In this document: positions 8,847 through 21,273 of the stretch, piece after piece
How the letters are laid out: each line of letters starts with the position of its first letter
Position numbering within the stretch: the stretch's first letter is position 1
Assembly: GCA_026129865.1 (NCBI GenBank)
Contig: JAHCHG010000007.1
Location: forward strand, 62,001 to 126,000
Origin: Pyrinomonadaceae bacterium
GTDB taxonomy: Bacteria; Acidobacteriota; Blastocatellia; Pyrinomonadales; Pyrinomonadaceae
Direction of reading: 5' to 3'
DNA length: 64,000 bases
The notes under the pieces: model-generated
What the model saw: the letters and a program-made list of their open reading frames with translations, nothing else
Told to the model about the DNA's origin: nothing
The model's database searches: none
Position numbers and translations under genes: made by a program

Positions 8847-9006
8847 CTTTATTTCTGCTGCTGTAAGAAACCTCTAAACTTACCAAAACAGAAAGGTTTG
8901 TCGGAGATTTTCGAAAGTAATTCTCTAAGGCATTTTTGAAGTATCATTTTTGTCGGATTGCTTAAAGGTTACTGAAAAAATTTATACAAAATTCGCTGGA
9001 GATTTT

Positions 9007-10461
9007 ATGGAATCGTTGGAAGGAAAACGTGCGGAAGTAAACGTTTGGAATCTGTTTCTTGAGTCGGTCGAAAAGCGCCTAAACAAGCAGATCTTTGACG
9101 CTTGGTTTCGACCCATTAAGTTTGAAGGTTTTGACGAGAACGAGAAGACTCTGAAACTTCGCGCGAGCCACATAACCAAAAATTGGGTCAGCACATATTA
9201 TGCTGATCTAATTTCGCAAACAATGAAGGATCTCGATCTGAGAAATTTCAATCTCGACTGGACGATCGAGGAACAGGACTCAAGCCTTGAAGCCGCTGCG
9301 GACGATGAGGACCAGGATTTCTTTGATGAACCGGGCTCATTGAATTTTCACGGCGGAAACGCGCGGGTTCCGCAAAATTCAAAGAATGAGAGTCTGCCGC
9401 GAAATAATTCGACCAATTTCGTAGATATCGAACCGATCGAAAATTCGCTCAATTCAAAATATACGTTTGAAAAATTTGTTGTCGGATCGTGCAATCAATT
9501 TGCGCATGCCGCAACTCTTGCTGTTGTCGAAGCACCGGGAAAGACCTATAACCCGATGTATATTTACGGCGGAGTCGGTTTAGGAAAAACACATTTGATG
9601 CATGCAGCCGGGCATGCGATAAAAGAGCGAAACCGTCATCTTCGCGTCGCATATATTTCTTCTGAGAAATTTATGAACGAACTGATAAATGCGATCCGTT
9701 ACGACAAAACGCAGACATTTCGCGAAAAATATCGTTCTATCGATGTACTTTTAATGGACGACATACAATTTCTTGCCGGAAAGGAAAGAACACAGGAAGA
9801 GTTTTTCCATACGTTTAACGCGCTCCACAACGATCAAAAGCAGATAGTAATTACTTCCGACTGCCCTCCGAGGGAAATTCCGACATTAGAAGAGCGGCTT
9901 CATTCGCGTTTCGAATGGGGTTTGATCGCGGATATCGAACCGCCTGATCTCGAAACTAAAGTAGCCATTCTGAAACGAAAAGCCGATCTGGACGGCGTGC
10001 ATTTGCCGGATGAAATAGCTTTTTATATGGCGACCAAGGTTAAAAGCAACATTCGCGAACTAGAAGGTTCGCTTGTTCGGCTCGTTGCTATTTCGTCGCT
10101 GCGCGGCGTTCCGATCTCAAAAATGCTTGCTCAGGACGCAATGCGGAACATAATCGACAGCGACCAGCCGGACGGCATTTCGATCGAGAGAATCGCCAAA
10201 ATAGTCGCGTCGAAATACGATCTGACATTTGAAGAGATAAAGTCTAAGAATAATTCGAGACAGATCGCCGTACCGCGCCAGATAGCGATGTATCTCTGTA
10301 AACGATTAACAAAACACAGCTTTCCGGAAATCGGGAAAGCTTTTGGCGGAAAGCATCATACTACCGTAATGCATTCGGTTGAGAAGATCGATAACCTGAT
10401 AAAAGACGACAGAGTTTTGCACAGGTCGGTCAGCGAATTTATCGACGAACTTTGCGGTTAG
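9007..10461 (+). CDS. dnaA: Chromosomal replication initiator DnaA
   Basis: 484 residues from the ATG at 9007, chosen because GGAG lies 5 nt upstream and the product starts directly before domain I (VNVWNLFLESVEKRL). The frame extends to a TTG at 8950 without support. Domain III has Walker A GGVGLGKTHLMHA and Walker B LLMDDIQFLAGKERTQEEFF. Domain IV has the DnaA signature GKAFGGKHHTTVMHSVEKI. DnaA binds TTATCCACA boxes and melts the origin. Boxes flank the gene on both sides. Confidence 0.98.
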   Translation: MESLEGKRAEVNVWNLFLESVEKRLNKQIFDAWFRPIKFEGFDENEKTLKLRASHITKNWVSTYYADLISQTMKDLDLRNFNLDWTIEEQDSSLEAAADDEDQDFFDEPGSLNFHGGNARVPQNSKNESLPRNNSTNFVDIEPIENSLNSKYTFEKFVVGSCNQFAHAATLAVVEAPGKTYNPMYIYGGVGLGKTHLMHAAGHAIKERNRHLRVAYISSEKFMNELINAIRYDKTQTFREKYRSIDVLLMDDIQFLAGKERTQEEFFHTFNALHNDQKQIVITSDCPPREIPTLEERLHSRFEWGLIADIEPPDLETKVAILKRKADLDGVHLPDEIAFYMATKVKSNIRELEGSLVRLVAISSLRGVPISKMLAQDAMRNIIDSDQPDGISIERIAKIVASKYDLTFEEIKSKNNSRQIAVPRQIAMYLCKRLTKHSFPEIGKAFGGKHHTTVMHSVEKIDNLIKDDRVLHRSVSEFIDELCG

Positions 10462-10559
10462 AAAAGGTCTTGAACGGTTTTGCTGTAAAAAAGTTTTCCG
10501 CAGCGTCGCTACAATCAAGAAACGGTTTTGTCGAGAGGATGACAACAAATGATCATTAA

Positions 10560-10576
10560 TTTTCCACATTTCCACA
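10560..10576 (+). repeat. 17-bp direct repeat, copy 1 (double DnaA box)
   Basis: TTTTCCACATTTCCACA, two overlapping relaxed DnaA boxes. An identical copy lies 157 bp downstream. Confidence 0.85.
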
Positions 10577-10716
10577 ACAAGACGTAAACCGGACAGGTGG
10601 AAAATCAAAATAACGAGATATAGAAAAGTTTATCCACAAATCGAAAAGATTATTAACAACAATTTCAACGTCGGCTGTGGACGGAAAAGATCAATGAAAA
10701 CGTCGATTTTATGCGG

Positions 10717-10733
10717 TTTTCCACATTTCCACA
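10717..10733 (+). repeat. 17-bp direct repeat, copy 2 (double DnaA box next to trios)
   Basis: Identical to the copy at 10560. It directly precedes the DnaA-trio array and AT-rich unwinding stretch, so it is the likely nucleation site for DnaA on single strands. Confidence 0.85.
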
Positions 10734-10822
10734 TGACCTACTAGTACTACTAGAAAAATATAAATTATTTATCTTTATTTTATAAAAAGCATCCTTGATC
10801 AGCTTCGTTTGGTCTTATACGA

Positions 10823-11224
10823 ATGAGAATATTTTTAATAAGTTTGACTGTAGTTTTTGGAGTTCTGCTTTCCGGCTGTCAGACGGGAGAAAAAGAGAAA
10901 ACCGTTAGTTTGAGTTCAGGTAAAACCGTTTCGATATCGTTTGAAAAAGAAACCGTCAACGAAAAAGTTACCAAATTAGCTGTCGACGCCGTTACGACGG
11001 AAAAATTGAAGACGGAAGTTGATCTGGAAAAAGATGTTACGGAAATTTGGGAATCCGTGCGTGAGAACGTCGAAAATGACGACCTCGACGAAGCGGTCAT
11101 CAGATATAAATATTCAGCCGATTACGTCAATGAAAGTAACGATCCTGAGAAGGTTTTTGTCGTGTCGGTTTTCCTTATTGAAAAGATAGAGAACGGGACA
11201 TGGAAGATAGATAAAATAGGATAA
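10823..11224 (+). CDS. Small lipoprotein, hypothetical
   Basis: 133 residues with a type II signal peptide (MRIFLISLTVVFGVLLSGC, lipobox LSGC with Cys19). The mature part is acidic with many Thr/Val/Lys repeats (SSGKTVSISFEKETVNEKV) and ends with a WKIDKIG strand that recalls NTF2-like lipoproteins seen elsewhere in the window. It lies between oriC and dnaN, 39 nt before dnaN, an unusual position. No family is recognised. Confidence 0.7.
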   Translation: MRIFLISLTVVFGVLLSGCQTGEKEKTVSLSSGKTVSISFEKETVNEKVTKLAVDAVTTEKLKTEVDLEKDVTEIWESVRENVENDDLDEAVIRYKYSADYVNESNDPEKVFVVSVFLIEKIENGTWKIDKIG

Positions 11225-11263
11225 ATCGGTTAATATTCGGGAAATAAAATTAGGAGAATTTAG

Positions 11264-12442
11264 ATGGAATTTGTAATCAAGCAAAGCGCTTTGAAAGATG
11301 AACTCGGGTTTGTGCAGGGAATTGTTGAAAAGAAAAGCACTATTCCGGTTTTGTCGAATATTCTGATCGAATCGATTGGCGAAAACACGATCCGAATCGT
11401 CGGAACGGACCTCGATGTAACGATCCGCTGCGAGGTAGAAGCCGATATCAAAACGGGCGGTTCGATCTGTCTGCAGGCAAGAAAGCTGTTTGATATTGTA
11501 AGATTGCTGGAAGATTCAGACCTTCATTTCAAAAAAGACGATAACGATTGGGTCAGTCTCGATTCCGGAAAATCGAAATTCCGCCTTGCCGGCGTAAGCC
11601 GTGAACAATTTCCGGAAGTTCCGACATTCAAGAGCGCTCCGCTTAAGATCTCTGCTGAAATTTTTAATCATTTTATTCAAAACACCAGCTTTGCCATTAC
11701 AAACGAACAATCACGCTTTACGCTTTCTGGAGCTAAATTTATGATCGACAACGGTTTAGCTCGAATGGTAACGACTGATGGTCACCGCCTGGCGTTTATC
11801 GAACGCGAGGTTTCTACCGATCCGAGCGAGAAAGTCGATTCGTTAATTCCAAAAAAGGCTTTGATGGAACTTACAAAGATCGCAAGAGATTCAAGCGGCG
11901 ACATCAGTTTTGGCGAAGATGATAATCATATTTATTTCGAAGTTGAAGGTCGCCTGCTGATTTCCCGAAAACTTTCCGGAACTTTTCCAAATTATGAAAT
12001 GGTCATACCGAAAGACAATGACAAGGTCGTTACTTTTGACGCGGAGGAAATGAAGAATGCGATCCGGCGTGTCGCACTGCTTGCAGACGAACGGACGCGT
12101 TCGGTCCGCTTAACGATTAAGTCCGGCGAGATCGCGATCGCCGCGCAAAGTGCAGAGGAAGGTGAAGCTCACGAAGTAGTCCCGGCAAATTTCGCCGGCG
12201 ATGATGTTGAGATCGGGTTCAATTCGCAGTATCTACAGGAATTTCTAAACGTTGCGACAGCAACCGCAGGCGAAAATGAGGAAGTCGAAAAAGAAGTCGA
12301 CGGCGAAACCGTTCGCGTAAAAGACGGCGGAAGACTTCAAATCGCATTCGAATTTAAGGACGGAAACGCTCAAACACAGATGAATATTGCGGGCGATTCT
12401 AATTACAACTACAAATACATAGTCATGCCGTTGCGCATATGA
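11264..12442 (+). CDS. dnaN: DNA polymerase III beta subunit (sliding clamp)
   Basis: 392 residues with three repeated clamp domains. Recognisable parts include KKSTIPVLSNILIE, TDLDVTIRCEV, FAITNEQSRFTLSGAKF, TTDGHRLAFIE and the C-terminal YKYIVMPLRI (family ends MPMRL). AGGAGA lies 9 nt before the ATG. A Glu/Lys-rich insertion (about 340-360, ENEEVEKEVDGETVRVKDG) lies in domain III. The clamp tethers polymerase III to DNA. It has the usual position after dnaA, separated from it by oriC and a small lipoprotein gene. Confidence 0.98.
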   Translation: MEFVIKQSALKDELGFVQGIVEKKSTIPVLSNILIESIGENTIRIVGTDLDVTIRCEVEADIKTGGSICLQARKLFDIVRLLEDSDLHFKKDDNDWVSLDSGKSKFRLAGVSREQFPEVPTFKSAPLKISAEIFNHFIQNTSFAITNEQSRFTLSGAKFMIDNGLARMVTTDGHRLAFIEREVSTDPSEKVDSLIPKKALMELTKIARDSSGDISFGEDDNHIYFEVEGRLLISRKLSGTFPNYEMVIPKDNDKVVTFDAEEMKNAIRRVALLADERTRSVRLTIKSGEIAIAAQSAEEGEAHEVVPANFAGDDVEIGFNSQYLQEFLNVATATAGENEEVEKEVDGETVRVKDGGRLQIAFEFKDGNAQTQMNIAGDSNYNYKYIVMPLRI

Positions 12443-12451
12443 TGAGATTTG

Positions 12452-12499
12452 CGAAGAATAAGAAAAGTGGAATTCCTACACTGCTTTTCTTATTCTTCG
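12452..12499. terminator. 16-bp perfect inverted repeat between dnaN and phaR (probable bidirectional terminator)
   Basis: CGAAGAATAAGAAAAG (12452-12467) pairs perfectly with CTTTTCTTATTCTTCG (12484-12499) across a 16-nt loop. It begins 10 nt after the dnaN stop and contains the phaR stop codon in its right arm. The stem is A/T-rich and the T-run is short, so termination efficiency is uncertain. Confidence 0.55.
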
Positions 12500-12969
12500 T
12501 CCTTTTCCGGTTTCTTTCCTGTCATAATTTCCCGCATAACCTCGGCGCCGGGAATTACCTTTTCCCACATTTGAGGCGCAGTAACTGCCATTTCCAAAAT
12601 ACTTCGAAATCGGTTGTCGAATTCTTCCTTGGTCTTTAGATATGCGTTGAAACTTGCTGATAGATGCGTTCTGAAAAATTCCTGCAAAGACTCTTCTCGC
12701 GTTCGCAAAATTTGAAATAAAAACTCGGTCGGTAATACCGTCTTATCGTTTTTCTCTTCTTCCAAAATGAGCTGTATCAAGACCGCTTTAGTTACATCTT
12801 CTTTTGTTTTGGAATCAATTACCCTTATATCCGTTCCCGTCCTAACGATCTCCGAAAGATCGCCGTAATTTACATAGGATTTTGTTTCTGTATTGTAAAG
12901 TCGACGATTGCCGTAACGCTTGATCGTTAGCACGTCTTCAGAGTCTTTATCAGATTTCGACTTAGCCAT
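12490..12969 (-). CDS. phaR: Polyhydroxyalkanoate synthesis regulator PhaR (PHB_acc family)
   Basis: 159 residues. The N-terminal PHA accumulation regulator DNA-binding domain is clear: [56 protein letters not shown] (about 14-73). A helical PHB_acc region follows ([20 protein letters not shown]). PhaR represses phasin genes and is released by binding nascent storage granules. It is transcribed divergently from a phasin-like gene, the classic arrangement. Palindromic TGCGA sites lie between the two. No phaC lies in the window. Confidence 0.9.
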
Positions 12970-13045
12970 AATAAAATAATGCTAACACGTTTTCTCAATT
13001 ACTCGAACCGAATTTCTAGGGTCAAATTCGATCGATGTCTGTTTA

Positions 13046-13057
13046 TCGCATCTGCGA
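13046..13057. promoter_or_regulatory. Palindrome TCGCA-N2-TGCGA, candidate PhaR operator 1
   Basis: TCGCA, TC, TGCGA at 13046-13057 in the 336-bp divergent region between phaR and the phasin-like gene. The same half-sites and spacing recur at 13175. Known PhaR sites are TGC-rich inverted repeats, so this is a plausible operator, but that is inference. Confidence 0.45.
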
Positions 13058-13174
13058 GTCAAATTCTTACGCGGAACAAACGCCCAACCCGTAATTTGTA
13101 GTGAAGAAATTGCGGTACAACATAACGAAACATCAGCAGTGAGCGAGCTCTTACGGAAATTCGATCATTTCATC

Positions 13175-13224
13175 TCGCAAATGCGAAGAGATAAGTTGAC
13201 AGATGATTTTTTCTGCGATAGTCT
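13175..13224 (+). promoter_or_regulatory. Palindrome 2 and promoter of the phasin-like gene
   Basis: TCGCA, AA, TGCGA at 13175-13186, followed by a perfect -35 TTGACA (13196-13201), a 17-nt spacer and a weak -10 TAGTCT (13219-13224). A third TGCGA half-site (13214-13218) directly abuts the -10. A repressor on these sites would block the promoter. The rest of 12970-13305 shows nothing else. Confidence 0.5.
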
Positions 13225-13305
13225 CGTTTACATAGAACGGCAAAACTTTTAGCAGTTCAAATAAAAAAGCAATATTTAGAAAAATTTTCGAAGGAGAAGT
13301 TGATC

Positions 13306-13689
13306 ATGGCAAACACAAAGAAAACAGACGTTACAGAAATCATGGAAACGGCAATGGATTTAACGCAAAACTCTGCAAAAACAGCACTTAAAGGTGCAGT
13401 GCAAACTGCGGAAGTTACGGAAAGTTATGTTCAGGGAATGTACAAAGCAGGTTACGATGCAAATTACGAAGCTCTCAAAGTAGCAAAAAACTACTGGGAT
13501 GCAACTTCGCAGATCCGTCAGGACTGGATCAAACTTTTTGGTCAAGCCGGCGAATCGTTAATTAACGCAACTGCGAAAATGGAACTGCCGATGCAGAAAG
13601 AGATCATGGACATGGGCAAAGGGATGATCGGAAACATAGAAAGAACAGTTGAGAATTTTACCCCTCAGACTAAATCAGCTGCTAAATAA
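13306..13689 (+). CDS. Phasin-like granule-associated protein
   Basis: 127 residues from the ATG at 13306 (AGGAG, 9 nt upstream; the frame also opens at a TTG at 13300). The product is small, all-helical, with no Cys, rich in Ala/Lys/Gln/Met, with amphipathic stretches such as VAKNYWDATSQIRQDWIKLF and LINATAKMELPMQKEIMD. This composition, the Trp/Gln pattern and the position divergent from phaR fit a phasin coating PHA or neutral-lipid granules. The sequence is not a clear phasin_2 match, so the function is inferred from context. It ends at a strong terminator. Confidence 0.65.
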   Translation: MANTKKTDVTEIMETAMDLTQNSAKTALKGAVQTAEVTESYVQGMYKAGYDANYEALKVAKNYWDATSQIRQDWIKLFGQAGESLINATAKMELPMQKEIMDMGKGMIGNIERTVENFTPQTKSAAK

Positions 13690-13703
13690 TCGGTTGATGG
13701 GGC

Positions 13704-13738
13704 GAGTCCGCGGTTGTAACAGACCGCGGACTCTTTTA
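13704..13738 (+). terminator. Intrinsic terminator after the phasin-like gene
   Basis: Perfect 11-bp GC-rich stem GAGTCCGCGGT (13704-13714) and ACCGCGGACTC (13723-13733), an 8-nt loop and TTTTATATT. It separates the phasin-like transcript from the next gene. Confidence 0.9.
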
Positions 13739-13777
13739 TATTCTAATTACAAATTTTCCCAACATACATAAAACATC

Positions 13778-14473
13778 ATGGCAGAAACGAAGAAAAAACC
13801 CGTGAAGGCTAAGAAAACTGCGGAGAAAAAGTCGGAATCAAAAACAACGCCGAAAGCGAAACGATCCGCGAAGAAGGTTGCCGAACCGTCGTCGAGTTCC
13901 AGGAGTTCGTCGCCGCCGAGTCCGGAGGTTTCGTCAGACTGGGCACGAACGATCGTCGATCAATTGATCGAAGCGCAAAAGATGTGGCTTGAAATCGTTT
14001 CCCGGCAAAACGCGCTGGTTTTTAAGACGGTTTCGGAAATTACCGGAATGGCGAACAGCGCTCCGTCCGACGCTCTGGCAAACTGGGCGAAACAGTCCGC
14101 GGAAAGCTTTATCGAAGCGCAGAAACAATGGTCGTCGATGGCGATCGAGCAAGGCGATCAATTGATGAAAGCGATGCGTTCGGGCGCCAATCTTTCGGAT
14201 CCAAACGTACTGTCGACCGTTCAGGAAACTGCCGGTAACGGGCTTCAAACATTGATCAAAATGCGCATGTCGTGGCTCGACTTTGCCGCGCAGCAAAATG
14301 CGCAAATGATGAAAATGATGAAGGAAGGATTAAAGCTCGATGATTCGTCGCCGGCAAATGCAATTGCAGATTTTGCTCAGGCTACCATGACGAGTTATGT
14401 TGAGATCCAGAAACGCTGGATGGACGTCGCAATGCAGCTGCCACTGTTTGGTTCGCCGAGCGACAAAAAATAG
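13778..14473 (+). CDS. Phasin/PhaE-like protein with Lys/Ala-rich tail and four internal repeats
   Basis: 231 residues. The N-terminal 45 residues are Lys/Ala/Pro/Ser-rich (KKPVKAKKTAEKK), like histone H1 or PhaF tails that bind DNA. Four related helical units follow, each with a W/F-x-x-Q pattern: LIEAQKMWLEIVSRQNA (about 64), FIEAQKQWSSMAIEQGD (about 110), LIKMRMSWLDFAAQQNA (about 157) and YVEIQKRWMDVAMQLPL (about 208). The pattern resembles phasin or PhaE helices. A role linking storage granules to the nucleoid, as for PhaF, is a reasonable inference. The next gene starts 5 nt downstream. Confidence 0.65.
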   Translation: MAETKKKPVKAKKTAEKKSESKTTPKAKRSAKKVAEPSSSSRSSSPPSPEVSSDWARTIVDQLIEAQKMWLEIVSRQNALVFKTVSEITGMANSAPSDALANWAKQSAESFIEAQKQWSSMAIEQGDQLMKAMRSGANLSDPNVLSTVQETAGNGLQTLIKMRMSWLDFAAQQNAQMMKMMKEGLKLDDSSPANAIADFAQATMTSYVEIQKRWMDVAMQLPLFGSPSDKK

Positions 14474-14478
14474 AATAA

Positions 14479-15048
14479 ATGGTCACACAAACCAAATCTA
14501 AACGCTCTTATCCCTGGACGACAAAGATCGGCGGCACAGAGTTCAAACTCCGGTTGATGACGGCGGATGACAAGCAGGCGATGCTCGACTTTGCAAAGTC
14601 GCTTCCGGAAGACGACCTTCTTTTTTTGGCTGTCGATATCACGGAAGAGCGTGCGGTTGACGACTGGATCAGAAGAATCAACGACGGAAACCTGCGCACG
14701 ATCTTGATCGAAAAAGACGGAAAGCTTGTCGGGCACGGCAGTCTGCTGCACGAAGAACAGGTTTGGACGCGTCACCTCGGCGGAATTATCTTATTGCTCG
14801 CGCCGGAAGTTCGCGGAAAAGGGTTGGGAAATATTCTCGCCGGTGAGCTTTTCGCATTTGCGAGCGAACTAAATCTTCGAAAAGTGATGGCACGAATGGC
14901 GGCGGGACAAACCGGCGCTGTGCAGGTTTTCGAAAAGCTTGGTTTTAAGATCGAAGCACTGCTCGCAGATTGTGTGATCGACCGCAACGACCGAACTCAC
15001 GATCTGATAATAATGTCTTACGACGTTACCGGATTCACCGAGCAATAA
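14479..15048 (+). CDS. GNAT-family N-acetyltransferase
   Basis: 189 residues. The GNAT fold is indicated by FKLRLMTADDKQAMLDF at the start, HLGGIILLLAPEVRGKGLG (acetyl-CoA-binding R/Q-x-x-G-x-G/A loop) and the C-terminal AVQVFEKLGFKIEALL. The substrate cannot be predicted. It starts 5 nt after the four-repeat phasin-like gene and precedes the WS/DGAT gene by 37 nt, so it probably belongs to the storage-granule operon. It might acetylate a granule protein or its Lys-rich tail, but nothing in the sequence proves that. Confidence 0.85.
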   Translation: MVTQTKSKRSYPWTTKIGGTEFKLRLMTADDKQAMLDFAKSLPEDDLLFLAVDITEERAVDDWIRRINDGNLRTILIEKDGKLVGHGSLLHEEQVWTRHLGGIILLLAPEVRGKGLGNILAGELFAFASELNLRKVMARMAAGQTGAVQVFEKLGFKIEALLADCVIDRNDRTHDLIIMSYDVTGFTEQ

Positions 15049-15085
15049 TGATCTAACTAAGCTCACAAAGCCAAATCTTGACGTT

Positions 15086-16522
15086 ATGAAAAAGCCCGAA
15101 TTAAACCGCAGATTGTCTTCGCTTGATTCGGCTTTTCTGTATTTAGAGAAGAAGGAATGTCCGCTTCATATCGGCAGCACCAGTGTCTTTGAAGGAAAGA
15201 TCACATTTAAAGACCTAAAAAAACATATTTCCGAAAGACTTCATTTAATCCCTAGATATCTTCAAAAAGTTGTTCCCGACCCTTTTAATTTAGGGCATCC
15301 AACGTGGGAACAAGATCAAGACTTCGAGATCGGGAAACATATTTTTGAGATAACAAGCGAAAAGCCGGTCGATCAAAAAAAATTGATCGAGATCGCGGGT
15401 GAAATCATGAGCAGCGTTCTGGAGAGGAACAAACCTCTCTGGGAACTTCATCTTGTAAATGAACTTGAAAGCGGCGGATCGGCACTTGTCGCAAAGGTTC
15501 ATCACTGCATGGTCGACGGAATTTCAGGAGTCGATCTAATAAAAATTCTTTTCGACATAACACCTGAAGGTACAAAAGCGCCGCCTGCGCCGGAAAACGA
15601 ACCGCCGCTGCCGAAAAATGACCCGACGCGCGCTTTTCTCGATTCGGTTCTAGGTTCTATGCAGGAAGGAATGAGCCGTTTTATGGAAATGCAGGCGGGA
15701 ATGCTGTATTTGACGCAGGCGATGTTCAATCCGCAAACGGCGGAAAAACTTCCGCAAATTGCCGATGTGCTTCCGGCAATCTCTGCACCGCCGCCGCTTT
15801 TGCCGTTTAACGGAGCGTGTTCAGGCGAACGCCGGCTGGCGTGGAGCGAATTTTCGTTTGCTGAAGCGCGCAAAATAAAGAATATTCTCGGCGGAACGGT
15901 AAACGACGTTGTATTAACGGTTTTGAGCGAAGCCGTTGCGCGGTATGCGCAGATTCACGGGCAAAAGCTCAATGATCGTATAGTTCGTTTTATGGTTCCG
16001 GTCAGTTTGCGGCAGAAAGAACAACGCGGCGCGCTCGGAAATCTTATTTCGATCTTACCGGTCGAAATTCCGCTCGACGTTGAAACATTGACGGAAAGAT
16101 TTTCGGCGGTAAATCGAAAGACTGCTTTAATGAAAGAAGCAAAGCTGGCAGAAGGTTTGGGGGTTTTCGGCGCGCTTTACGGAATGATGCCGGCTCCGCT
16201 CCAATCGGTCATCGGAGCGCTTGCAGACACTCCGATCCCGCCGTTTAATATGGTCGCAACGAACGTTCCGGGACCGCAGATTCCGTTATATCTTGTTGGC
16301 AAAAAATTACTTTCGCATTATCCGTACGTGCCGATCGGGTACGGATTAGGGCTTGGATGCGCTATCTTCAGTTATAATCAAACGCTGTACTTCGGTTTTT
16401 CCTCCGATGCACAGGCGATGTCGGATGTTGAGACGTTTAAGGAATTGGTGGATCGGGTCTTTGACGATCTGCTCGCGACGGCTGAAAACATGGAAACACA
16501 GCCGGCAAGCGCCGCGGCATAA
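15086..16522 (+). CDS. Wax ester synthase / diacylglycerol O-acyltransferase (WS/DGAT)
   Basis: 478 residues of the bifunctional WS/DGAT family, which transfers acyl-CoA to fatty alcohols or diacylglycerol and makes neutral-lipid bodies. The catalytic HHxxxDG motif is intact (HHCMVDG, residues 139-145). PLWE (117-120), VNDVVLTVLSEAVARY and the C-terminal ATNVPGPQIPLYLVG motif are also present. The start MKKPELNRRLSSLDSAFLYLE is typical. It is flanked by a GNAT gene and a lipase and follows phasin-like genes, which points to neutral-lipid rather than PHA storage. Confidence 0.92.
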   Translation: MKKPELNRRLSSLDSAFLYLEKKECPLHIGSTSVFEGKITFKDLKKHISERLHLIPRYLQKVVPDPFNLGHPTWEQDQDFEIGKHIFEITSEKPVDQKKLIEIAGEIMSSVLERNKPLWELHLVNELESGGSALVAKVHHCMVDGISGVDLIKILFDITPEGTKAPPAPENEPPLPKNDPTRAFLDSVLGSMQEGMSRFMEMQAGMLYLTQAMFNPQTAEKLPQIADVLPAISAPPPLLPFNGACSGERRLAWSEFSFAEARKIKNILGGTVNDVVLTVLSEAVARYAQIHGQKLNDRIVRFMVPVSLRQKEQRGALGNLISILPVEIPLDVETLTERFSAVNRKTALMKEAKLAEGLGVFGALYGMMPAPLQSVIGALADTPIPPFNMVATNVPGPQIPLYLVGKKLLSHYPYVPIGYGLGLGCAIFSYNQTLYFGFSSDAQAMSDVETFKELVDRVFDDLLATAENMETQPASAAA

Positions 16523-16542
16523 GTAAATTAAAACGATCATAA

Positions 16543-17319
16543 ATGGATATTTTAGAAGGCGAATTAGAAGCGTTTACCGGATTTGATAAGGAGATCCGTG
16601 AATCCGCGCTTCCGCTGATGTTTGAGTCGCTTGTCGGAGTTGACTGGACACTTCTGCATTTATCGCCTGTTTATTATGGTTTCGGAATTCCGCACGGAAA
16701 CGGCGAACCGGTGATCGTAGTTCCCGGATTTCTCGGCTCCGACATTTATTTGTACGAATTATACCTTTGGCTGGGTCGGATCGGGTATAAGCCGTACATG
16801 TCGAACATCGGCTGGAATGCGGATTGTTTGAACAGTTTGTCGGAAAAATTACTGGAAACGATCGGAATTGCTAAAAATGAGACGGGTCAAAAGGTAAATT
16901 TGATCGGGCATAGCTTAGGCGGAGTTTTGTCGAGATCGGCGGCGACGCAGAAAAGAGATTCGATCGCGTCGGTAATTACACTGGCGTCGCCGTTTCGCGG
17001 CGTCTCATCACATCCGAAGGTTTTGGAGCTTTCGCATCGTATCAGAACACGGATCTTCAAAAACACCGACAAGACCGATTTTCCGCATTGTTACACCGGT
17101 CATTGCGATTGCAGTGCGGTTTCTGCCTTGCAAAATTTTCTGCCGAAAGGTTTGAAGCAAACGGCGATCTATACAAAATCGGACGGAATCGTCGATTGGA
17201 AAAAATGCATTTCCCGGTTTTCCGACAATAACTTTGAAGTCACCGGCACGCATATCGGACTAGTTTATAATTTTCAGGTTTACAAACTGATCGCCGAGCG
17301 CTTAGCTTCACAAAACTAG
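16543..17319 (+). CDS. Alpha/beta-hydrolase, probable lipase/esterase
   Basis: 258 residues. The oxyanion region VIVVPGFLGSD and the nucleophile elbow GHSLGG (Ser124) are clear. The likely acid is in KSDGIVDWKKC and the His in VTGTHIGLVYN. No signal peptide is seen, so it is cytoplasmic. It lies 20 nt after the WS/DGAT gene, and a lipase next to a lipid-body synthase suggests mobilisation of stored ester or triacylglycerol. It could equally act on another ester. Confidence 0.85.
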   Translation: MDILEGELEAFTGFDKEIRESALPLMFESLVGVDWTLLHLSPVYYGFGIPHGNGEPVIVVPGFLGSDIYLYELYLWLGRIGYKPYMSNIGWNADCLNSLSEKLLETIGIAKNETGQKVNLIGHSLGGVLSRSAATQKRDSIASVITLASPFRGVSSHPKVLELSHRIRTRIFKNTDKTDFPHCYTGHCDCSAVSALQNFLPKGLKQTAIYTKSDGIVDWKKCISRFSDNNFEVTGTHIGLVYNFQVYKLIAERLASQN

Positions 17320-18902: not shown

Positions 18903-19206
18903 CCGCTGATCGTAAATGTCGATTCGCGAATTTCCGTAAAGATGCGACCGGTTTTTCTCTGAAGATCTTTAATTGACTCATCCGATAATCTTTCCTTCGA
19001 AACTTCCGGTCATCTTGAATTAATAAAATAGCTTCAACCGGTCAAACTGATCGAACCAAACCTCTAGCGACTTAGAGACTTTCTCTCAAAACCGCCATTT
19101 TCATTGCCCGAATCATAAACCCTTCATCTGGCACGTCTTTTGCGAATGGTGATGTGCCCGACCAGCGATTTTGGTCGCGTCAAAATTAGAGAGAAGTTTT
19201 AACAAA
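18903..19206. other. Intergenic region upstream of the subtilase gene
   Basis: About 300 bp without a supported gene, RNA or strong hairpin. It should hold the subtilase promoter, but no near-consensus -35/-10 pair was found. An in-frame TTG at 19171 is not favoured as the subtilase start. Confidence 0.4.
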
Positions 19207-21273
19207 ATGAAATCCATTAAAATCTCCCAAGCATTAAGCGCTATCGTCCTTGCCGGGATAGTGATTCATACATTTGCTCTTTCCGGTGCGGCGCAATTGA
19301 TGAAGCAGTCGGCGAAAGCTGAACTAGCCGTCGAAACCGCGGGAACCGTTGAGAATCAGTTCATTAAAAACAAAATAGCCCCCGATCTTGAAGAAAAAAG
19401 CGATGAGCTTAACTACGGTTTTAGAAGCGACGAAACTCAAAAAGTGATCATTCAGTTAAAGGCTGAAACACCGCTTAATGAGATGTTCGGCAATGATCTT
19501 TCGGAACGGGCGAAAAGATCGCTGTTTCGCGAAGAGGTCAGCAAGAACGAAGAAAAGGTCGGAACGGTCGAAGATCGTTTGAAGGAAAACGGCGGCGATC
19601 TGAAACGCGCTTTTAAGAACCTCGGGTTGGTTTCAGCGGAACTTCCGCTGTCAAAAGTTCGCGAACTCGCGCAGATGGATGAGATCGAATATATCTCGCC
19701 CGACCGCGACACGTCGGGCGCGGGACATCTGCAAAGCACGACGGGTTATTATAATCAGGGAATTTATGATGCGGGCGACACCAACCCTTCGACATGGCTT
19801 GATGCGGGAAATCAAACGATCGCTGTTATCGACAGCGGTGTCGATTCAACCCATACGCTGATGCAGTGGGAAGGCGTCGGCAGCAAAGTTTGGAAATACG
19901 ATTTTACCGGTCAGGGAACGACCAACGACAACTACGGACACGGAACCCACGTTGCTTCAATGCTCGGCGGTCAATTTACGCTGGGCAACGGGACATATCA
20001 GGGAATTGCCGCCGGAGCACAGATCATTAGTCTTAGAGCTCTGAAAAACGATGGAAAAGGCAGCATCAGCTATGCGATCGCGGCGCTTGATTGGGCTGTT
20101 CAGCAAAAGCTAAATAATTGGTGGAATATTCGTGTCATCAACATGAGTCTCGGCGCCGGACCGCGCGACAGCTATCTAAATGACCCTCTTTGCCAGGCTG
20201 CGCGGCGCGCGGTCAATGCGGGAATTGTCGTAGTTGCATCTGCCGGAAACTACGGCAAGGATCAAAACGGGCAGAAGATCTACGGCGGAATCAGCTCGCC
20301 GGGAATCGAACCGTCGGTCATCACGGTCGGCGCTGCAAACACTTTCGGAACGAACTTTCGTTCTGACGATACCGTCGCCACCTTCAGTTCGCGCGGACCA
20401 ACGCGCGGTTACCGCACGCTTACGAATGGCGCGCGAAAATATGACAATCTGATCAAACCCGATCTGGTAGCGCCCGGCAATAAGCTTATCGGCGCGCGCA
20501 GCACCACGACAAATACGCTGATCCAGCAATATCCTCAACTTGCGACCGGAAACGCGACTAATGCGAAGGACAAGGTCATGTATCTCAGCGGAACGTCAAT
20601 GGCGGCACCGATCGTCGCCGGAGCGGCTTCGCTGTTGATTCAAACAAATCCGAATCTTACGCCGAATCTGGTAAAAGCGATCCTGATGTATTCTGCTCAG
20701 CCATTGAGAAATTTTAATACGCTCGAACAGGGAGCAGGAGAATTGAACGTTGACGGAGCCGTCAGGCTTGCCCGGCTAGTGAAATCGACGATTCCTACGA
20801 CGAACGGAGCGGCGATGCTCAACGGCGCTTTGCCGACTTCGCAAAGCAGCTTGATCGCAGGTCAAACTGCCTATTGGGGTAAAGGAGTAATTACGAATTT
20901 TGGATTCCTTATCGGCAACGATCTAATGCTGAAATACCAGAAAATGTACGGAAACGGCGTGCTTATGTCGGATTCGACTCCATTTTCAGGAAGCTCGATC
21001 ACACGGTCGACCACCTGGACCTCGGGATCGCTCACGCTTTATCAGGGCGTTATCCGAAACAACGGTGTTCTTATGTCCGACGGTACGAATGTGATGAACG
21101 CCAATGCGATGGGCGGTTCGCCGACTCCGTACGTTAATTCTCAAGGAGTTTTGATGAGCGACGGAGTTCTGATGAGCGATGGCGTTCTGATGGGCGACGG
21201 AGTTTTGATGAGCGACAACGTTGCAGATTTCGCGCTTGGCGACAACACAACCTGCATGCAGCCGGCGCCGTAA
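19207..21273 (+). CDS. Secreted subtilisin-like serine protease (S8) with GVLMSD-repeat tail
   Basis: 688 residues from ATG 19207 (GAGAGAAG upstream), with a signal peptide (about 10-30, ending SGAAQ). An I9-like propeptide region (KVIIQLKAETPLNEMF ... VRELAQMDEIEYISPD) precedes the catalytic domain. The triad is intact: Asp in AVIDSGVDST, His in NYGHGTHVASML, oxyanion Asn in ASAGNYG and Ser in SGTSMAAPIVAG. The C-terminal 150 residues carry repeated GVLMSD units, including four perfect tandem copies. It is probably exported and possibly displayed on the surface. A strong terminator follows. Confidence 0.95.
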   Translation: MKSIKISQALSAIVLAGIVIHTFALSGAAQLMKQSAKAELAVETAGTVENQFIKNKIAPDLEEKSDELNYGFRSDETQKVIIQLKAETPLNEMFGNDLSERAKRSLFREEVSKNEEKVGTVEDRLKENGGDLKRAFKNLGLVSAELPLSKVRELAQMDEIEYISPDRDTSGAGHLQSTTGYYNQGIYDAGDTNPSTWLDAGNQTIAVIDSGVDSTHTLMQWEGVGSKVWKYDFTGQGTTNDNYGHGTHVASMLGGQFTLGNGTYQGIAAGAQIISLRALKNDGKGSISYAIAALDWAVQQKLNNWWNIRVINMSLGAGPRDSYLNDPLCQAARRAVNAGIVVVASAGNYGKDQNGQKIYGGISSPGIEPSVITVGAANTFGTNFRSDDTVATFSSRGPTRGYRTLTNGARKYDNLIKPDLVAPGNKLIGARSTTTNTLIQQYPQLATGNATNAKDKVMYLSGTSMAAPIVAGAASLLIQTNPNLTPNLVKAILMYSAQPLRNFNTLEQGAGELNVDGAVRLARLVKSTIPTTNGAAMLNGALPTSQSSLIAGQTAYWGKGVITNFGFLIGNDLMLKYQKMYGNGVLMSDSTPFSGSSITRSTTWTSGSLTLYQGVIRNNGVLMSDGTNVMNANAMGGSPTPYVNSQGVLMSDGVLMSDGVLMGDGVLMSDNVADFALGDNTTCMQPAP
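21145..21216 (+). repeat. Four 18-bp tandem repeats encoding GVLMSD in the subtilase tail
   Basis: Units at 21145, 21163, 21181 and 21199, each 18 bp (GGAGTTTTGATGAGCGAC and near-identical variants), encode GVLMSD, GVLMSD, GVLMGD, GVLMSD. Two further single units occur upstream, near 20958 and 21064. Confidence 0.9.

Follow-up and report, generated by a model that had tools for sequence, protein, structure and literature searches.

In a 64,000-nucleotide stretch from a Pyrinomonadaceae bacterium (contig JAHCHG010000007.1, positions 62,001 to 126,000; hereafter "the window"), six adjoining genes at 12490-17319 probably form an inclusion system for neutral lipids (wax ester or triacylglycerol, TAG) under the control of a PhaR repressor, as judged from sequence comparison. 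PhaR, two conserved palindromes and a divergent phasin gene make up a module that is common to the polyhydroxyalkanoate (PHA) clusters of the same class, and in the host lineage (Pyrinomonadaceae-type Blastocatellia, Acidobacteriota; genome of 4.4 Mb, 95.8% complete) this module is linked with a repeat phasin, a wax ester synthase / diacylglycerol acyltransferase (WS/DGAT) and a lipase-like hydrolase, with the PHA synthase absent. The parts belong to known families, and a droplet-bound regulator that controls the droplet coat is already known from the MLDS/MLDSR pair; new here is the palindrome that WS/DGAT-type and PHA-type loci alike have upstream of phaR. Together, this suggests that bacteria (here soil-type Acidobacteriota) reuse one granule-sensing switch for two storage materials.

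A preliminary description of this DNA had listed six contiguous genes, and open reading frames scored against Pfam and TIGRFAM profiles place all of them side by side, phaR on the minus strand and divergent from five plus-strand genes. PhaR (PHB/PHA accumulation regulator, PHB being polyhydroxybutyrate; 12490-12969, minus strand) scores 85 bits against the DNA-binding domain PHB_acc_N (PF07879, cut-off 25) and, just short of the cut-off of 109.45, 107.1 bits against TIGR01848, and its DNA-binding block is invariant in an alignment of 20. The divergent short phasin (127 amino acids, aa; 13306-13689, plus strand), probably starting with the ATG in position 13306, behind AAGGAG, is followed by a four-repeat phasin (13778-14473, plus strand) and by a GNAT acetyltransferase (14479-15048, plus strand; PF00583, Acetyltransf_1, 49 bits), an ordinary member of its superfamily that is kept in the cluster at 50-79% identity. 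The WS/DGAT (15086-16522, plus strand) scores 349 bits against TIGR02946 (cut-off 310), and its HHxxxDG residues H139, H140, D144 and G145 are invariant in an alignment of 17. The last gene (16543-17319, plus strand) encodes an alpha/beta-hydrolase (PF07819 and PF00561 over cut-off) with a GHSLGG motif and a triad (S124, D214 and H237) that does not vary among 15 aligned sequences, probably a lipase or wax-ester hydrolase.

Conservation of gene order had been named beforehand as a test of the locus, and the order is kept in three families. Genomes of family f1 fetched outside genus g7 share the arrangement phaR<>phasin-repeat phasin-GNAT-WS/DGAT-hydrolase, and families f2 and f6 share it minus the short phasin; because the order recurs in relatives whose proteins are ~40-79% identical, the locus is more than chance. 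In the window, dnaA and dnaN (8950-12442) stand directly before the cluster (the end of dnaN is 48 bp away), and both are absent from the relatives' fetched stretches, which hold other neighbors. Across genomes the surroundings thus vary and the cluster stays together. Within genus g7 the cluster is split into phaR-phasin-repeat phasin and GNAT-WS/DGAT-hydrolase, located on separate contigs in G064 and 7 kb apart in G056.

A phaC gene elsewhere in the genome, with its own phasin set, would, according to the preliminary description, have argued against a dedicated lipid-body system, and none was found: a PhaC_N search of the genome gave no match, and the class III PhaC model (TIGR01836) retrieved only a 23-bit fragment of another hydrolase. 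The same models detect true synthases in ~20 of the 118 genomes sampled from the class, which indicates that they work in this group. Within this sample (thresholds of 150 bits for WS/DGAT and 100 bits for PhaC), 39 genomes carry PhaR, of which 19 have WS/DGAT without PhaC, 15 have PhaC without WS/DGAT, three have both and two have neither. These last two are both explainable, since G004 has only a longer paralogue (32% identical) and the WS/DGAT of G053 is a fragment at a contig end. Four further genomes of the class have WS/DGAT without a PhaR match, among which the G078 contig ends inside the phasin and G113 is 82% complete; G020 and G021 have no such explanation. PhaC was counted in the class sample, PhaR and WS/DGAT also in a phylum sample of 297 genomes, where PhaR occurs in 61 and WS/DGAT (at least 150 bits) in 39. 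All 39 WS/DGAT genomes, which span 27 genera, carry PhaR, vs. 22 of the 258 others (Fisher p-value 2e-33, ignoring kinship), and, by the coordinates listed, PhaR lies within 10 kb of WS/DGAT in 14 of the 39 (families f1, f2, f6, f16, f23 and f29).

The region between phaR and the phasin (12970-13305) contains two perfect TCGCANNTGCGA palindromes, 129 bp apart, as candidate PhaR operators: TCGCATCTGCGA at 13046-13057, 76 bp upstream of the phaR ATG, and TCGCAAATGCGA at 13175-13186, shortly before a TTGACA (13196). At WS-type loci, 8550 bp of sequence upstream of phaR contained 18 perfect sites (~0.03 expected; at least one site in 16 of 19 loci), and at PHA-type loci 4500 bp contained eight (~0.02 expected; at least one site in five of 10 loci), with expectations derived from the genome-wide rate, and loci lacking a perfect site often hold TGCANNTGCA variants. 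Pairs spaced ~103-130 bp apart are common to the PHA-type loci L036, L040 and L041 and to WS-type loci. Known PhaR sites include CTGCN3GCAG and TGNTGCN3GCAA (PMC3206438), as well as YGCRNYGCR, which is paired at phaP1 and phaP2 (PMC12542648); the Blastocatellia site is likewise a pair of YGCR half-sites, with a spacer of two vs. one in the known sites, and we infer that PhaR binds these palindromes. A further perfect copy at 14852, within the GNAT gene, shows no conservation and was therefore taken as chance.

The short phasin, present in 14 of the 118 class genomes, matches the small protein whose gene separates phaR from phaC in the class's PHA clusters (hhalign probability 96%, E-value 3.4e-9, 86 columns), with the repeat phasin against the short phasin (5%) as the negative comparison. 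Homology of the repeat phasin itself to PhaR, the short phasin or PhaE is unsupported (probabilities of 2.5, 5 and 0.8%, respectively), and it has no significant Pfam match to phasin families (Phasin_2 matches five of 20 members, best E-value 0.008). A hidden Markov model (HMM) built from the family places four repeat units at residues 53-90, 101-138, 149-185 and 197-222; this model is circular for Blastocatellia members and evidential only for f16, f34 and PHA-cluster proteins, with E-values computed over a small sequence set. The predicted structure consists of four long helices behind a disordered tail (mean pLDDT 62), for which a Foldseek search against PDB returned nothing below an E-value of 1.6. 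The Lys/Ala tail reported in the preliminary description is present and histone H1-like, yet it is N-terminal, the mirror image of PhaF; f1 members have a long, Lys/Ala/Thr-rich tail, f2 and f6 members a short one. The protein occurs in 23 of the 118 class genomes. Outside the class, its profile (A1) finds five- to six-repeat proteins beside WS/DGAT (G228, G185 and G355) and shorter phasin-like proteins beside PhaR and PhaE-PhaC (G294, 3.4e-16; G195, 7.5e-8; G334, 9.2e-7), which places the repeat-phasin family at both kinds of locus.

Family f16 has a different layout, PhaR<>repeat phasin-hydrolase with WS/DGAT behind PhaR, and between phaR and the repeat phasin lies a classical TGCN3GCA pair (e.g., TGCATTGCA and TGCAGTGCA, ~70 bp apart). 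The f16 hydrolase adjoining the repeat phasin is 47-50% identical to that of the window, and an AdhE-type aldehyde/alcohol dehydrogenase (NF010378, 1139 bits) and a GMC oxidoreductase are encoded alongside, so that this gene set looks like a wax-ester turnover cassette. Three f16 loci (L094, L095 and L096) also carry an ABC1-type kinase. In a tree of 32 PhaR proteins, for which the tree tool gave a long-branch warning, the WS-type PhaRs of Blastocatellia form one group (96/98) and the f16 WS-type PhaRs cluster with PHA-type PhaRs (99/96). This topology requires at least two partner changes between WS/DGAT and PHA, and gives no direction for them. We lean slightly toward the broader view that PhaR in Acidobacteriota directly senses the surface of neutral-lipid droplets, and that the PhaR-phasin switch is a module independent of the storage material, which changed partner between PHA synthase and WS/DGAT at least twice. 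L042 (3809-4486) and L052 (3938-4639) encode a further PhaR-type regulator of greater length (225-233 aa), which shares 32-34% identity with the window PhaR.

The system would most probably work as follows, each step being conjectural save for the sequence features named. Free PhaR would sit on the paired sites and repress both the phasin gene and phaR; once WS/DGAT makes lipid bodies, PhaR would be drawn onto their surface, the phasin promoter would open, and phasins would coat the bodies in proportion to that surface. The repeat phasin may be a second coat, with a basic tail that could tether the bodies to the nucleoid by analogy with PhaF and MLDS, and the hydrolase would mobilize the stored lipid. 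An intrinsic terminator between the two phasin genes (13704-13733, plus strand; a 12-pair stem and a T tract), whose hairpin is found again, altered in sequence, in L013 and L019 and is replaced by different hairpins in L020 and L021, would hold phasin output above enzyme output. A switch of core material is physically plausible, as TAG-making bacteria that express a PHA phasin have their TAG bodies coated by it (PMC6273058).

Several observations weigh against a PhaR-controlled lipid-body system. The granule-binding domain PHB_acc (PF05233) scores 21.1 bits in the window PhaR, below its cut-off of 27, and PhaC co-occurs with WS/DGAT in three genomes (G090, G003 and G008). The window short phasin has no significant match to the Pfam phasin families (the best members of its family reach E-values of 0.02 for Phasin_2 and 0.046 for Phasin), and its predicted structure is too poor for a structural search. 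TCGCANNTGCGA is also frequent in PhaR-less relatives, with 9-17 copies per genome in G007, G060 and G061 (genus g3) vs. 0-3 for a reversed control pattern, and the host genome holds 13 other copies, 12 inside genes and one intergenic; we thus rejected the genome-wide count as a sign of a regulon, and the argument rests on position. Finally, the strong terminator separates the phasin from the repeat phasin and all later genes, and no operator was found upstream of the unlinked GNAT-WS/DGAT operon of G064, which together weaken the case for PhaR control of WS/DGAT itself. Given the terminator, the case for direct control in the host genome is strongest for the phasin and phaR, rather than for WS/DGAT. 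The earlier proposal of PHA-type control wired to a neutral-lipid locus lacking PHA synthase accordingly holds in narrower form: the missing phaC, the order conserved in three families, the shared operator, the homology of the phasin with its PHA-cluster counterpart and the phylum-wide co-occurrence all favor it.

The alternative that survives best, though we consider it unlikely, is that PhaR acts as a general regulator of carbon status, as in rhizobia, repressing the phasin along with other genes, with WS/DGAT a mere neighbor and with phasin-coated bodies that PhaR does not sense. Broad PhaR regulons are described for Sinorhizobium and Bradyrhizobium (PMC12542648, PMC10888616), the operator precedes only the phasin with a terminator behind it, and the two halves of the g7 cluster are unlinked or 7 kb apart. 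However, PhaR occurs in every WS/DGAT genome of the phylum sample and in few others, the single intergenic copy among the 13 other operator-like sequences leaves no broad regulon visible, and the f16 sites occupy the very gap that separates PhaR from the repeat phasin. Very improbable, in our estimation, is a reading in which an unrecognized synthase fills the inclusions with PHA or a different polyester after all, and WS/DGAT and the hydrolase act on other lipids. PhaR, phasin and PhaC do occur together in sister families, and the window phasin is homologous to the PHA-cluster phasin; yet the models that recover synthases across the class find none in this genome, the absence of PhaC is common to 19 genomes and so is not caused by a missing contig, and in f16 an AdhE-type enzyme accompanies the same repeat phasin, hydrolase and WS/DGAT. 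Least credible of all is a chance adjacency or a decaying PHA-cluster remnant with no present function, which the apparent decay of one locus (in G010) would fit, and which is contradicted by the conserved catalytic residues, the operators and the gene order kept across families at the identities given above.

A PhaR-controlled neutral-lipid locus resembles the PhaR-phasin control of PHA granules in Ralstonia, Paracoccus and Sinorhizobium (AniA) in its PhaR-family regulator, divergent phasin gene, paired palindromes from YGCR half-sites, and a phasin with homologs in the PHA clusters of the class. It differs from them in lacking a PHA synthase, in having WS/DGAT as the storage enzyme and a half-site spacing of two rather than one, and in adding the repeat phasin, the GNAT and the lipase-like hydrolase. 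The closest functional analog is MLDS/MLDSR of Rhodococcus jostii, in which neutral-lipid bodies sequester the regulator of their main coat protein, a protein equipped with a Lys-rich DNA-binding tail (PMC5504291). The logic is alike, but MLDSR is an XRE-type helix-turn-helix protein in one operon with MLDS, whereas the window regulator is a divergent PHB_acc_N protein; likewise, MLDS has PAKKA motifs at its C-terminus, whereas the basic tail of the repeat phasin is N-terminal. The nucleoid-tethering phasins PhaF and PhaM (PMC5658603) offer a further parallel in a helical body with a histone-like Lys/Ala tail (PhaF), from which the repeat phasin departs by its N-terminal tail, four repeats, neutral-lipid locus and lack of a significant Pfam phasin match.

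WS/DGAT loci of Actinomycetota and Pseudomonadota, as far as they are covered by the accessible part of PMC10351704, are similar in a WS/DGAT over cut-off and in fatty-acid genes nearby in some relatives (an acyl-CoA synthetase gene lies within one f2 cluster, L026, and one f6 cluster, L028); unlike the window, they often include Kennedy-pathway genes, and that part reports no PhaR linkage. The same paper calls neutral-lipid synthesis in Acidobacteriota unexplored, and the literature searched, which left most subscription journals outside, yielded no case of PhaR serving WS/DGAT inclusions. If the proposed system is real, PhaR would read the inclusion surface as such rather than polyhydroxyalkanoate in particular, and target recognition by a storage-granule sensor would become directly testable, because one operator and closely similar PhaR proteins are paired with PHA in some sister lineages and with neutral lipid in others. 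Acidobacteriota, which are abundant in soil, would moreover gain a genetic marker of oil or wax storage.

Several other features were noted in and around these clusters. The f6 clusters have gained phosphatase and short-chain dehydrogenase genes and, between GNAT and WS/DGAT, a gene for a CYP102-like P450-reductase fusion of ~1080 aa (L023, 5700-8954; L025, 5662-8880; L027, 5695-8961; L028, 4950-8177). One f2 genome carries an HMG-CoA reductase gene within its lipid cluster (L026, 6221-7408). At the apparently decayed G010 locus (L032, 1950-4150), a PhaR lacking its N-terminus adjoins a WS/DGAT lacking its first third, and the phasin, repeat phasin and GNAT are gone. Further along the window, 19171-21273 encodes a subtilisin-like protease with C-terminal GVLMSDG repeats, which correspond to an 18-bp tandem unit present in four copies at 21145-21216.

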